IMG/VR virus record: IMGVR_UViG_3300037189_019531
Coordinates: 1 to 58,981 of that record
Source: a virus
Length of the DNA: 58,981 bases
Direction: 5' to 3' (one strand)
Below, piece by piece: positions 21,002-25,677 of the stretch. Each line of letters starts with the position of its first letter. Position 1 is the first letter of the stretch. The notes beneath the pieces are model-generated. The model had not been told where the DNA came from. It saw only the letters and a program-made list of their open reading frames with translations, and searched no databases. Both the position numbers and the translations under genes were made by a program.

Positions 21002-21226
21002 TTATTTGTTATTTTCTTCTTCCATCTCAATGATATATTGGATGTAATATCTCCTTACATATACAGGCATAGTAAGGACATCACCATAAGTGAATCCTCT
21101 TTTGACTAAAAATAAAATCTCGGTAAGTTGGTCTTTTTTATAATCCGTAGAAAGGACGAAAAAATTCCACCCCGAATCCAATATTAAATTGGACTTCTTC
21201 TCCTGACGGGGTTGTTGTTTTTTGGG
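21002..21226 (-). CDS. Start-less ORF, probable frameshifted C-terminus of the tail assembly chaperone
   Basis: This frame is open from just after a stop at 21229-21227 to the TAA at 21002 and overlaps the 3' end of the gp26-like gene in the +1 frame. Downstream of the overlap it encodes DYKKDQLTEILFLVKR, then GFTYGDVLTMPVYVRRYYI, a sequence of the kind found in small tail assembly chaperone partners located just before tape measures. Its only ATG codons lie inside or after this conserved block, so ordinary initiation would truncate it. One TTG at 21181-21179 could start a 59-residue product. The simpler reading is a +1 (or -2) programmed frameshift out of the gp26-like gene. Plausible slip points in the upstream frame are GGG-G at 21173-21170 and TTT-TTT-C at 21164-21158, where tRNA-Phe could re-pair with TTC. 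Confidence 0.65.
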   Translation of the reverse strand, partial: PKKQQPRQEKKSNLILDSGWNFFVLSTDYKKDQLTEILFLVKRGFTYGDVLTMPVYVRRYYIQYIIEMEEENNK

Positions 21227-21887
21227 TTAAATCAAGACCTGGTTTCTTTTCTTGTGTATATTTTCTAAAATCTTGGGAATCTTTAATTGGTAAACTTTCG
21301 ATGAAATGTCTGATAGACATTGGGTCTCTATTACCTCTAACCGATTTAATCATCATTTCCATTCTTTTTGTGATAATTGGTGCAGCACCATTACCATTCC
21401 AACTTTTTTGAATTTGGTCTAATTCTAATTCTTGTTTTTGATTAACAAATACAAATGTTACATCGGCACCACTTTTTGGCATTGTATACGAATACTCACC
21501 ATTTGAGTCAGCTACTAAATCAAATTTCTTATATGATAACGAACTTAAATCAACTTCAACATCAAAAGACTCATTTGTTTTTGGGTCAGTTAACGATACT
21601 TTATATTCAGTTCCAAATGCAGTATTTCTTAAAAAGATTAAAATAGCTTGTCTATCCTCATCAACTAAATCTTCAACATCAATATCTTTATCTACTACTT
21701 TTCTTTTAAGAATTTCGGTAACGATTTGATTGGTCTGTGTTAAGTTGGGTGCAGCTAATATATTTTCGTCAGAGGCGGTCAAATAAGCCACTTTAACGGA
21801 CTTTTTCTTATTTGGGTAGTAAATCCCCATACTAGGTAATTCAACTACGTCATATGCAATTGTTGGGTCAATATATTGATTGTTCAT
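21138..21887 (-). CDS. 26: gp26-like tail/baseplate assembly protein (chaperone position)
   Basis: A 249-residue protein of the gp26-like family. The N-terminus VELPSMGIYYPNKKKSVKV followed by LTASDENILAAPN, the central VEDLVDEDRQAILIFLRNTAFG and the later YKVSLTDPKTNESFDVEVDL are typical of this family, in which members act in hub assembly or as tail assembly chaperones. It lies between tube (gp19) and tape measure genes, the position of lambda gpG/GT-type chaperones that bind the tape measure during tail assembly. Consistent with that, a second ORF overlaps its 3' end in the +1 frame. A terminator separates it from the upstream tube gene, so it may be expressed at a lower level than the tube protein. 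Confidence 0.72.
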   Translation of the reverse strand: MNNQYIDPTIAYDVVELPSMGIYYPNKKKSVKVAYLTASDENILAAPNLTQTNQIVTEILKRKVVDKDIDVEDLVDEDRQAILIFLRNTAFGTEYKVSLTDPKTNESFDVEVDLSSLSYKKFDLVADSNGEYSYTMPKSGADVTFVFVNQKQELELDQIQKSWNGNGAAPIITKRMEMMIKSVRGNRDPMSIRHFIESLPIKDSQDFRKYTQEKKPGLDLTQKTTTPSGEEVQFNIGFGVEFFRPFYGL

Positions 21888-21991: not shown

Positions 21992-22480
21992 TTAATAAAC
22001 TTGAATACATCTATCCATTCTCAAACTACAATCGATTGTCGCTAAATCATCTCTTGAGTAATCTAAATCACCGAAGTTTAAGTTAGTTAAGAAACATCCT
22101 TGTAAAATCCATTTCTCAACAACAACTCCTGTTGGGTCTAACATTTCTAATTCCACATCTTTTTTGTATCCAGCTGCATAACCCATTCTACCTGTTACTG
22201 ATTCTGCATGTAAACGGAACCATTCCATTAAAGCTTGAGATGCTGAAGGACCGATTGGGTCTCTAAATGTTACTTTGATTTCTTCCCATTCAAATTGTCC
22301 TGCTACGTAAGACTTCGTATTCAAAAATGGTATTTCTACTGATTTGATTTTAGCTGTTGGTCTTGCCGTAGAAGCGATATACCATTCATTGATACCCAAG
22401 GAAGAAGGAAATCTTAGGATAAATCGATTTTTACGTTTCGGTTCAAATGGAACCGGCATCTTCATTAATAAATCTGCCAT
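21992..22480 (-). CDS. 19: Tail tube protein (T4 gp19 type)
   Basis: A 162-residue major tail tube subunit, matching T4 gp19 (163) in length. Family signatures include the start with PVPFEPKRKNRFILRFPSS, the IPFLNTKSYVAG loop, FEWEEIKVTFRDPIGPSA and the ending FGDLDYSRDDLATIDCSLR, which in this family forms the beta barrel that stacks into the hexameric tube inside the sheath. It is transcribed from its own region: a 338-base intergenic stretch upstream contains a GATATATTTATAAG motif, and a strong terminator lies just downstream. This monocistronic arrangement fits a protein needed in high copy number. Assignment is firm. Confidence 0.92.
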   Translation of the reverse strand: MADLLMKMPVPFEPKRKNRFILRFPSSLGINEWYIASTARPTAKIKSVEIPFLNTKSYVAGQFEWEEIKVTFRDPIGPSASQALMEWFRLHAESVTGRMGYAAGYKKDVELEMLDPTGVVVEKWILQGCFLTNLNFGDLDYSRDDLATIDCSLRMDRCIQVY

Positions 22481-22818: not shown

Positions 22819-25677
22819 TTAGATATTTTCAAATGAAGCTCCTGTTGGAGTAATTACAAATTCCAAATCAATAAATTCAAGAGAACGAGTAGGCTTAACG
22901 TAAATTTTACCTCTCAATGTATTTGCATCGATATCTTCTGGGTCGTTAGACACAGTTACTTTGAATTCATACAAACCTCTTTCTTTCTTAATTGATTCCA
23001 AGATAGGGTTTACCAATCTTAAGAATTCTTGTCTTACTTGGTCATCGTTTTGTTCAAACAATAATCTTACAGCAACAGCAGAGATTAACTTTCTTGCTCT
23101 TAACAATAATCTTCTTACGTTGATTCTGTCCAAAGCAGATTCTCTAACTTGTAACGTTTTGTTACCCCAAATAATGGTACCGGTATCTGAGAATGTTGCA
23201 ATTGGGTTAATTCTGTTTTTGTATAATGTATCTCTATCATCAAGTGTTAATTTCTTGTAAGCTTTGATTGCATTAACCAAACCTCTTGAATAACCTGCAG
23301 GTGCAAACCAAGGATAAGCTACATTATCTGTTAAAGCAATGTTCTTAACTACTTCACCTGTTGGTGGAAGATAGATTTGAGTTGCATTGTCAGTGTCTCT
23401 TACTTGAATCCAAGGCCAATATGTTGCTGAGTAGTTAGAATCAATATTTGATAATTCTAAATCACCAACTACACCATCAACTTCTTGTTGTGAGTTAGGA
23501 CCTGGAGCACCAATAATGTATAATGAGTCAGCTCTATCATTTTCAACCATATCAATTGCTTGACTAACTAATGAACTATGGTCAATGAAATTGATACCAG
23601 GAGTTGCAAATAAGTTAATGTCAATTGCTTCAGGATTAGAATATGTTTGAATACCTGCTAAGTAAGCATAATAATCTGAGTTACCATAATCAGCATTGAA
23701 TACACCGCCATTGTTAGTGTTACCTGAAATGTAAGTGTGTTTACCGTAGATGTAACCATCTCCAGTTGTTCTTGTGCTTCTGTAGATATCCCAACCATCA
23801 AAACCACCACATACTGCGAAAGTAAATTTACGGTAATTAATGTTTGTTAATTTGTTATTAGCGTCACCTGTTTGACCTTCTAAATCATAACCTGTTGTTT
23901 GATAAACTTGTTTACTCTGTGTATCAACAATTGAAGATGCGTTAGTTGAAAGGTGGAAACCATAAGTTGAACTACTTGCGCCGTATCCTTTATATTTGAA
24001 TAAATCTTCATCATATTTGAATCCAGATTGTGTAGATAAACCTAAAGTTACTCTTCTTACTTTGTCACCATCAGACATTTTAACACTACCATCAGCATTG
24101 TAGTATACTGTTTCACCTGCATCAAAATAGTTTGTTTTATATAAAACATTACCTAAAGTATTGTCACTACCAAACGCGCTATTGTTTACGAAACCTTTGA
24201 AACCTGCAGGGAATGCATCTGTTGGTGCACCGTCTGCCATTACTAATGTAATGTATTTTGAATTTAATGGATATTCACCATCTGATGTTCCGACTTTTCT
24301 TGCGATGTAACCCGGTAAATCAGGATTCATTGAACATCTTGTAAATTTCTCTAATACTACTTGATTATCATCAGTATCGTAGAAATCACGAAGAACCATA
24401 TCAAATTCACCTGTTTCAATGTTAATGTTTTGAATTTGTATTTTTAATTGGAAGTTAGCTGCTTCACCATCCGCAATTGTTTGAACTGAGAATAATTCGT
24501 CAACTTTATTACCTCTAACTTCAGATACAACCATATTTGACATTGTAGTATCCCAAGGTTGTTTGAAATCATCACCTTCAAGATTGTAAACTTCAACTAA
24601 ACTTAAACCTTTGATAAACCCTTGATTATAAGCGTTTAATAATAAGTTAGGATAAACTTCATGAACATATAACGGATGACCGCTGTAGTCTTTATCAAAT
24701 ACACCTGTTCCTAAAACTTTAGTGATGTATTTTGTAGAAGTTGTATCTAATGAACATGTGAATGATTTAACACCACCTGTATGTCCTGTTACATTTATTG
24801 AAAACTCCGCCAATGGGTTTGTTTGAATACCACTAACATCAGCTAATTGGAAGCTTGTGTCACCAGTTACTTCTAACACTAAATTTTGGTGAGTATCGTA
24901 ATGACCTCTTGATCTTAAAGCTGCAACAGTAATACCATCATAATCGGCATTAACTTCAGCAGCATATACATATCTTGTCACATCAAACCATCCGCCTACA
25001 TTCCATACAAATAAATAAGAATAAACTGCGTCAGTTCCATTATTCCATACATTATACCAATTCTTATTGTTATATGCACTGAATGGAGATAATAATTTAC
25101 TTCCACCAGGAACGTCTGTATCAGGAATTGCACCGATTTGGAACCATGCACCTGTTGAAGGATGTTGTGTATTTCCGCTATAGTTCTTTTCAATATATGC
25201 TGCAACAGAGTTCACACCGTCAACTGATGTGTGAGCGTTTAATGCTGAGTAGAAACTACTATTTGTCATACCTGTATGCGCATCAGGGTCCATAGTAGAA
25301 GCACTATGTGTGAATGATGCTAAATTAACAACCATTCCACCGATTGTTTGAATACCGAATGTTTTATATGGTAGGTAACCAGTTTTACCCAATATTCTTG
25401 TTACGAATAATTGGTTTGATTCTTGTAAATAAGCCTTAGCTACATAAGGTAGTTCATACTTTGGTGCTCCCGAACCATCCTTTTCAGGAGATGTTGTTCC
25501 GAAATATGTTTTGAATTCGTCATAACTTCCGATTAAAATTGGTTCAAATGCAGGACCTTTCAGGGTCTCACCAACCAATCCTAAAGTAGTTACACCTACG
25601 CTCTGAGCTACGAATGTTAAATCCTTCTCTGATGTGTAAACACCCGGAGAAACGAATACTTTGTTTGAATTTGCCAT
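22819..25677 (-). CDS. 18: Contractile tail sheath protein (T4 gp18 type)
   Basis: A 952-residue tail sheath subunit, far longer than T4 gp18 (659). The N-terminus VFVSPGVYTSEKDLTFVA and GLVGETLKGPAFEPI are classic sheath features. The conserved C-terminal core is also present: YPWFAPAGYSRG, INPIATFSDTGTIIWGNKTL, INVRRLLLRARK and the final strand LEFIDLEFVITP. This core forms the inner sheath layer and the handshake arms that drive contraction. The extra length lies in the middle (about residues 100-600), likely as additional surface domains rich in Gly, Asn and Tyr. The gene is flanked by its own upstream late motif and its own terminator, giving a monocistronic high-level transcript. Confidence 0.92.
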   Translation of the reverse strand: MANSNKVFVSPGVYTSEKDLTFVAQSVGVTTLGLVGETLKGPAFEPILIGSYDEFKTYFGTTSPEKDGSGAPKYELPYVAKAYLQESNQLFVTRILGKTGYLPYKTFGIQTIGGMVVNLASFTHSASTMDPDAHTGMTNSSFYSALNAHTSVDGVNSVAAYIEKNYSGNTQHPSTGAWFQIGAIPDTDVPGGSKLLSPFSAYNNKNWYNVWNNGTDAVYSYLFVWNVGGWFDVTRYVYAAEVNADYDGITVAALRSRGHYDTHQNLVLEVTGDTSFQLADVSGIQTNPLAEFSINVTGHTGGVKSFTCSLDTTSTKYITKVLGTGVFDKDYSGHPLYVHEVYPNLLLNAYNQGFIKGLSLVEVYNLEGDDFKQPWDTTMSNMVVSEVRGNKVDELFSVQTIADGEAANFQLKIQIQNINIETGEFDMVLRDFYDTDDNQVVLEKFTRCSMNPDLPGYIARKVGTSDGEYPLNSKYITLVMADGAPTDAFPAGFKGFVNNSAFGSDNTLGNVLYKTNYFDAGETVYYNADGSVKMSDGDKVRRVTLGLSTQSGFKYDEDLFKYKGYGASSSTYGFHLSTNASSIVDTQSKQVYQTTGYDLEGQTGDANNKLTNINYRKFTFAVCGGFDGWDIYRSTRTTGDGYIYGKHTYISGNTNNGGVFNADYGNSDYYAYLAGIQTYSNPEAIDINLFATPGINFIDHSSLVSQAIDMVENDRADSLYIIGAPGPNSQQEVDGVVGDLELSNIDSNYSATYWPWIQVRDTDNATQIYLPPTGEVVKNIALTDNVAYPWFAPAGYSRGLVNAIKAYKKLTLDDRDTLYKNRINPIATFSDTGTIIWGNKTLQVRESALDRINVRRLLLRARKLISAVAVRLLFEQNDDQVRQEFLRLVNPILESIKKERGLYEFKVTVSNDPEDIDANTLRGKIYVKPTRSLEFIDLEFVITPTGASFENI

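Follow-up and report, generated by a model that had tools for sequence, protein, structure and literature searches.

A candidate +1 frameshift with an upstream RNA hairpin in gp26-family tail chaperone genes of phages

Introduction

How is an open reading frame translated if it has no ATG ahead of its conserved core and overlaps the end of another gene? The question is raised by a virus from IMG/VR (record IMGVR_UViG_3300037189_019531; the whole stretch analysed, 58,981 nt, is referred to below as the window), for which the initial annotation proposed a +1 frameshift joining a gp26-like protein to the C-terminus of a tail assembly chaperone.

Frameshifted tail chaperones, including those of some T4-like phages, are already known, as is the +1 direction in SPO1-like and haloarchaeal phages. 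Lambda-type G/GT chaperones are produced in a short and a frameshifted long form via a –1 shift (reviewed in PMC5009743), and T4 has long been listed as an exception to the conserved G/GT frameshifting (PMC5009743). Short-gene/long-gene chaperones of some T4-like phages were described by Vladimirov, Gautam and Davidson (2022, Virology 566:9), as cited in PMC10885494 and PMC12846349; where PMC12846349 cites this work, it does so for polyT –1 sites. A +1 shift has been reported for the tail chaperone of the SPO1-like Bacillus phage Moonbeam (PMC4299906) and is very likely for that of the haloarchaeal virus HSTV-2 (PMC5009743). The phage of the window and several hundred of its relatives appear to make two versions of the chaperone by a +1 slip, and we regard a two-form T4-type tail chaperone produced via a +1 shift at UUU_C as very probable, judging from the comparative evidence described here.

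Results

Overlap of two coding frames

The 249-aa product of the gp26-like gene matches PF12322 (T4_baseplate) with E=4e-9 and 36.9 bits, above the gathering score of 24.5, and phrog_150 ("baseplate hub") with E=1e-12. The gene and the +1 ORF that overlaps it are located between the tube and tape-measure genes, as in the G/GT type, in agreement with the initial description of the locus (Table 1). No family match was found in phrog and Pfam searches for the downstream gene; a tape measure is annotated at the same position in Flavobacterium phage immuto and Listeria phage LIS04, and the order sheath–tube–gp26–(+1 ORF)–tape measure is retained in phages of Flavobacterium, Listeria, Bacillus, and others. 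The tail sheath protein of the window (22819-25677, minus strand) is unusually long, 952 aa. In Pseudomonas phage QdP_Psa3 (L015 3205-4645), the tube gene is separated from the next tail gene by two adjacent genes of ~240 aa each; the second one is the gp26 relative, and the first may be its paralogue.

Table 1. Features of the gp26-family locus in the window.
Feature	Position	Strand	Basis or comment
Tail tube gene, upstream neighbour	21992..22480	–	phrog_4542, E=8e-27
gp26-family gene, predicted short tail assembly chaperone (TAC-N), 0 frame	21138..21887	–	ORF, 249 aa; stop 21140-21138
+1-frame ORF	open from 21226 to stop 21004-21002	–	overlaps the end of the gp26-family gene
RNA hairpin 5' of the site	21169..21212	–	MFE –16.6, z –2.0; RNAalifold; compensatory changes
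Hairpin outer helix	ACCCCG (21212-21207) with CGGGGU (21174-21169)	–	
Hairpin inner helix	AGUCCAAU (21195-21188) with AUUGGAUU (21182-21175)	–	
Predicted +1 shift site TTT TTT CGT	21156..21164	–	comparison: UUU_CGN in 65 representatives, UUU_Y or CUU_U in others
Predicted C-terminal domain TAC-C, +1 frame after the shift	21002..21157	–	51 codons (VLSTDYKKDQ...EEENNK), then stop; kept in +1 relatives
0-frame tail PFYGL-stop	21138..21155	–	made only without the shift; low confidence in the model
Probable tape-measure gene, downstream neighbour, 649 aa	19038..20987	–	position

An initial scan yielded eight relatives, and a search seeded by an alignment of seven yielded at least 559, of which 80 were taken. 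With additional queries, the set grew to 338 gp26-family loci having 189 distinct gene ends; representatives were obtained by removing near-copies (≥90% identity). Annotated members are phages of Flavobacterium, Microcystis, Listeria, Bacillus, Streptococcus, Pseudomonas, and Rhodothermus. Throughout the 338 loci (189 gene ends), the median run beyond the 0-frame stop is 59 codons in the +1 frame vs 10 in the –1 frame, and at least 35 +1 codons past this stop are present in 158 out of 159 complete representatives, the one exception being a –1 form. Past the 0-frame stop, third positions account for a 0.53 share of substitutions in the +1 frame, compared to 0.52 in the known gene. Hence we consider it confirmed that the overlap of two coding frames is not a matter of chance and that the observation is real; by comparison, the proposed +1 fusion is strongly supported.

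Shift site and direction

In the window, the two codons preceding the A site are TTT TTT; among the relatives they are TTT TTT, TTT CTT, CTT TTT, TTT CTA or TTC TTT, and every +1 case retains UUU_Y or CUU_U able to re-pair in the +1 frame. In relatives with TTT CTA, UUU_C is usable one codon earlier, and the true site of L306 is TTT TTT CGT. UUU_Y or CUU_U is found in 162 of the 163 representatives with the site located, the exception (L260) being a –1 form; a slip site able to re-pair in the new frame is thus conserved. CGN (65) and TGG (89) predominate in the A site, and in most relatives the 0-frame stop comes three or five codons after the A-site codon. In the CGN group the A-site arginine is never encoded by AGA, though AGA accounts for 61% of the arginine codons in the rest of the gene set, while CGC and CGG together make up 44 of the 65 A-site codons, vs less than 4% elsewhere. 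Part of the conservation is accounted for by UUU codon bias and double coding. Comparison of the relatives shows the site and its direction; if TTTC is read as one step, a 294-aa fusion with no internal stop results, and the predicted +1 junction in the window (...GVEFFVLSTDYK) spans GVEFF-VLSTDYK. A –1 shift at a standard heptamer (X_XXY_YYZ) was rejected for the window, where the –1 frame closes 10 codons past the stop and the second ORF is in +1.

Could the second ORF be an independent gene whose translation begins internally, or by coupling, at TTG 21181 or at some other weak start? This TTG, the only ATG/GTG/TTG codon ahead of the conserved core in the window, is a small qualification of the initial description, which noted the lack of an ATG there. 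A TTG is also present in many relatives, and in some records a short ORF is annotated in the region, but upstream starts are not conserved: 43 of the 157 representatives lack any ATG, GTG or TTG in the +1 frame between the last stop and the site, 19 additionally lack one within the first 20 codons after the site, and 23 have a +1-frame stop at most four codons upstream of the site, often the UAG of GGG GUA GAR. Moreover, the conserved protein block starts at the two Phe codons, ~18 nt separate the AGGAG motif from the TTG, and the latter is located inside the hairpin. A check of the relatives for an ATG-started second ORF outside the overlap likewise left the frameshift standing, and we consider independent initiation highly unlikely.

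The observed frame could also be reached by a –2 shift or by transcriptional slippage along six U residues, as the U6 run of the window allows –2 re-pairing and the product would differ by one extra Phe only (EFFFVLST vs EFFVLST). Nonetheless, relatives with TTC TTT CGN (L043, L322, L014) or TTT CTT TGG keep the +1 ORF despite the loss of both the –2 re-pairing and the long U run. TTC TTT CCC (L015) likewise speaks against both mechanisms, and what is left in such relatives is UUU_C re-pairing to UUC in +1; the TTC TTT CGN relatives therefore rule out the –2 shift, which the initial annotation had allowed for, and leave this kind of mechanism very improbable overall. The same annotation offered two candidate sites, both with correct coordinates, of which TTT-TTT-C (21164-21158) is retained. 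The other one, GGG-G (21173-21170), is next to impossible as a place of the shift, since many relatives with GGG GUA GAR (L018-L025, L046, L053, L085, and others) would read UAG straight after it, and in other relatives GGG is replaced by GGT. The strong preference for GGG in this position (codon –5 in 53 of 65 CGN-type representatives, with 9% expected) has another source: GGG covaries with the upstream CCC, its partner being CCCC ~38 nt upstream, and is therefore explained by the hairpin.

Upstream RNA hairpin

Comparison of the relatives also shows an RNA hairpin 5' of the +1 site. When 64 rows are aligned without gaps, 94% of the outer-helix cells (columns 16-21 with 54-59) are paired, compared to at most 61% for versions slid along the alignment; 24 double-change cells are observed vs 7.4 in shuffles (0/500). 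The same outer helix was selected by RNAalifold unprompted. Some of the compensatory changes are synonymous (ACC/GGG to ACA/GGU, and CCG/UUC to CCA/UUU). In the inner helix of the L302-L338 subgroup, one pair is GC in nine and AU in eight cases, and another is AU in 13 and GC in six; the latter pair is consistent in all 21 rows that carry A or G, and each side has changed six times on the tree. The 60 nt preceding the site have a mean z of –1.71 against synonymous recoding in 65 relatives, making it the strongest window of the gene, compared to –0.52 to +0.41 for the other 17. The helices are short, and the inner register varies between subgroups. Tree-based independent-pair sign tests have too few supported branches for significance, and therefore we regard the covariation evidence as good but not final.

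No comparable stimulatory structure is seen on the 3' side (z 0.01 in the window; mean z –0.42/–0.56 in relatives). The UUU_UGG group has a weaker and different signal upstream (z –0.85), and alignment folding of 66 TTT-TTT-TGG members yielded no common hairpin. In the L100-L259 group, purine-rich stretches (GGAGGGG, GAGGAG) are located 5' of TTT CTT TGG or TTT TTT TGG and could pair with the U-rich slip site.

It is possible, if somewhat doubtful, that the hairpin is real but has a different role, such as hiding an internal AGGAG, mRNA stability, or attenuation, any of which would be compatible with the frameshift. A conserved AGGAG (TCA GGA GAA codons; 21204-21200, minus strand, in the window) is indeed unpaired in the internal loop, and the literature consulted contained no case of a hairpin stimulating a +1 shift from upstream. 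On the other hand, in the gapless alignment 4 nt separate the widely conserved outer helix from the first slippery codon, and the signal is by far the strongest of its kind in the gene.

Predicted protein products

The short form and the C-terminal domain were modelled with AF2 as separate parts. The short form is predicted with pLDDT 88, its best BFVD matches being T4-like baseplate hub proteins; residues 246-249 have pLDDT below 50. TAC-C is predicted to form three helices (pLDDT 92). A sequence search of PDB yielded no relative, and a fold search yielded nothing significant, with the HK97 chaperone 2ob9 appearing only at E 5.7.

The C-terminus of T4 gp51 taken alone matches TAC-C weakly (E 0.055); when combined with the C-termini of –1 phages it matches the +1 TAC-C with a probability of 98% and E 7e-13. 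This match speaks for the two-form reading of the locus. A chaperone function of the locus is likely from its position and from homology to T4 gp26/gp51.

Homologues with the –1 frame, and T4

Unlike in the window, the homologous second ORF of cyanophage S-RIM8, SRB7757, and Aeromonas phage 65.2 is in the –1 frame after U_UUU_UUC, and this heptamer falls on the same two codons as the +1 site. The second ORF is likewise in the –1 frame in L260 and LR756511. The gene ends L260 and L099 are gp26-family relatives with a –1 second ORF and a T TTT TTC heptamer.

Both gp26 and gp51 of T4 match PF12322, gp51 having ~48 extra residues. On an unrooted tree with long branches, they group together beside the –1 phages (support 95/85), and two direction changes are required. 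By sequence, T4 gp26 corresponds to the short form and its paralogue gp51 to the long one. Vladimirov and colleagues reportedly treat gp26/gp51 as the T4 pair, and frameshifting is said to be conserved in several T4-like groups.

We give an even chance to a broader scenario, in which the +1 shift at UUU_CGN in bacterial phages is driven by the hairpin, the direction of the shift on one and the same pair of Phe codons has switched between +1 and –1 in evolution with both products kept, and T4 has later substituted gene duplication for the shift.

Discussion

From the comparative data we infer a slippage event of such efficiency that most ribosomes would terminate at 21138, giving the 249-aa short form. 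In a fraction of ribosomes with peptidyl-tRNA-Phe on UUU (21161-21159) and CGU in the A site, the tRNA would slip forward by one base, so that the P-site UUU re-pairs to UUC, the next codon becomes GUC, and reading goes on in the +1 frame to yield the 294-aa long form with the three-helix C-terminal domain. By refolding immediately 5' of the site once the ribosome has passed, the hairpin may help to push the ribosome forward. By analogy with lambda gpG/gpGT, the tape measure would be a binding partner of both forms, and the C-terminal domain would recruit tube subunits.

The locus resembles lambda-type G/GT in its position between the tube (major tail) and tape-measure genes and in a second ORF having no start of its own; it differs in the +1 direction at UUU_Y, in belonging to the PF12322 family (T4 gp26), and in the upstream hairpin. 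T4 gp26/gp51 are of the same family, and the gp51 C-terminus belongs with TAC-C, but in T4 the short and long forms are separate genes in place of a +1 shift. With Moonbeam and, very probably, HSTV-2 the window shares the +1 direction in a tail chaperone. The +1 site of influenza A PA-X, UCC_UUU_CGU (PMC3498833), has the same core UUU_CGU, with P-site UUU moving to UUC and CGU in the A site; this is a likeness of the site only, as PA-X is an unrelated gene translated by the eukaryotic ribosome, with no stimulator evident (PMC5009743). The bacterial prfB gene also combines a P-site +1 slip (CUU_U) with a 5' stimulator, but there the A site contains a stop codon and the stimulator is Shine-Dalgarno-like, with a spacing of 3 nt 5' of the site (PMC5009743), whereas the window has a sense codon (CGU) and a hairpin, its GGGG being separated by 8 nt from the P-site codon and by 5 nt from the first Phe codon.

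In the literature found, with Vladimirov et al. (2022) represented by the papers citing it, we came across no +1 shift at UUU_Y in the gp26/PF12322 family, no upstream hairpin, and no opposite directions at one homologous site. New here are the covarying 5' hairpin, the –1 homologues on the same two codons, and the reading of T4 gp26/gp51 as short and long paralogues. At one homologous position, the gp26 family includes +1 shifters, –1 shifters, and split genes, constituting a natural series for how frameshift direction evolves, and it offers a hairpin upstream of the site as a testable stimulator of bacterial +1 slippage.

In many records, the C-terminal half of the gp26-family chaperone has been overlooked or given a wrong name. 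In S-RIM8 (L340 3232-3369), Flavobacterium phage immuto (L010 4827-4937), and Bacillus phage SP-15 (L098 3821-3940), short ORFs in the TAC-C region are annotated as "baseplate hub assembly catalyst" or hypothetical; the actual product is probably a fusion with the gp26-like protein.
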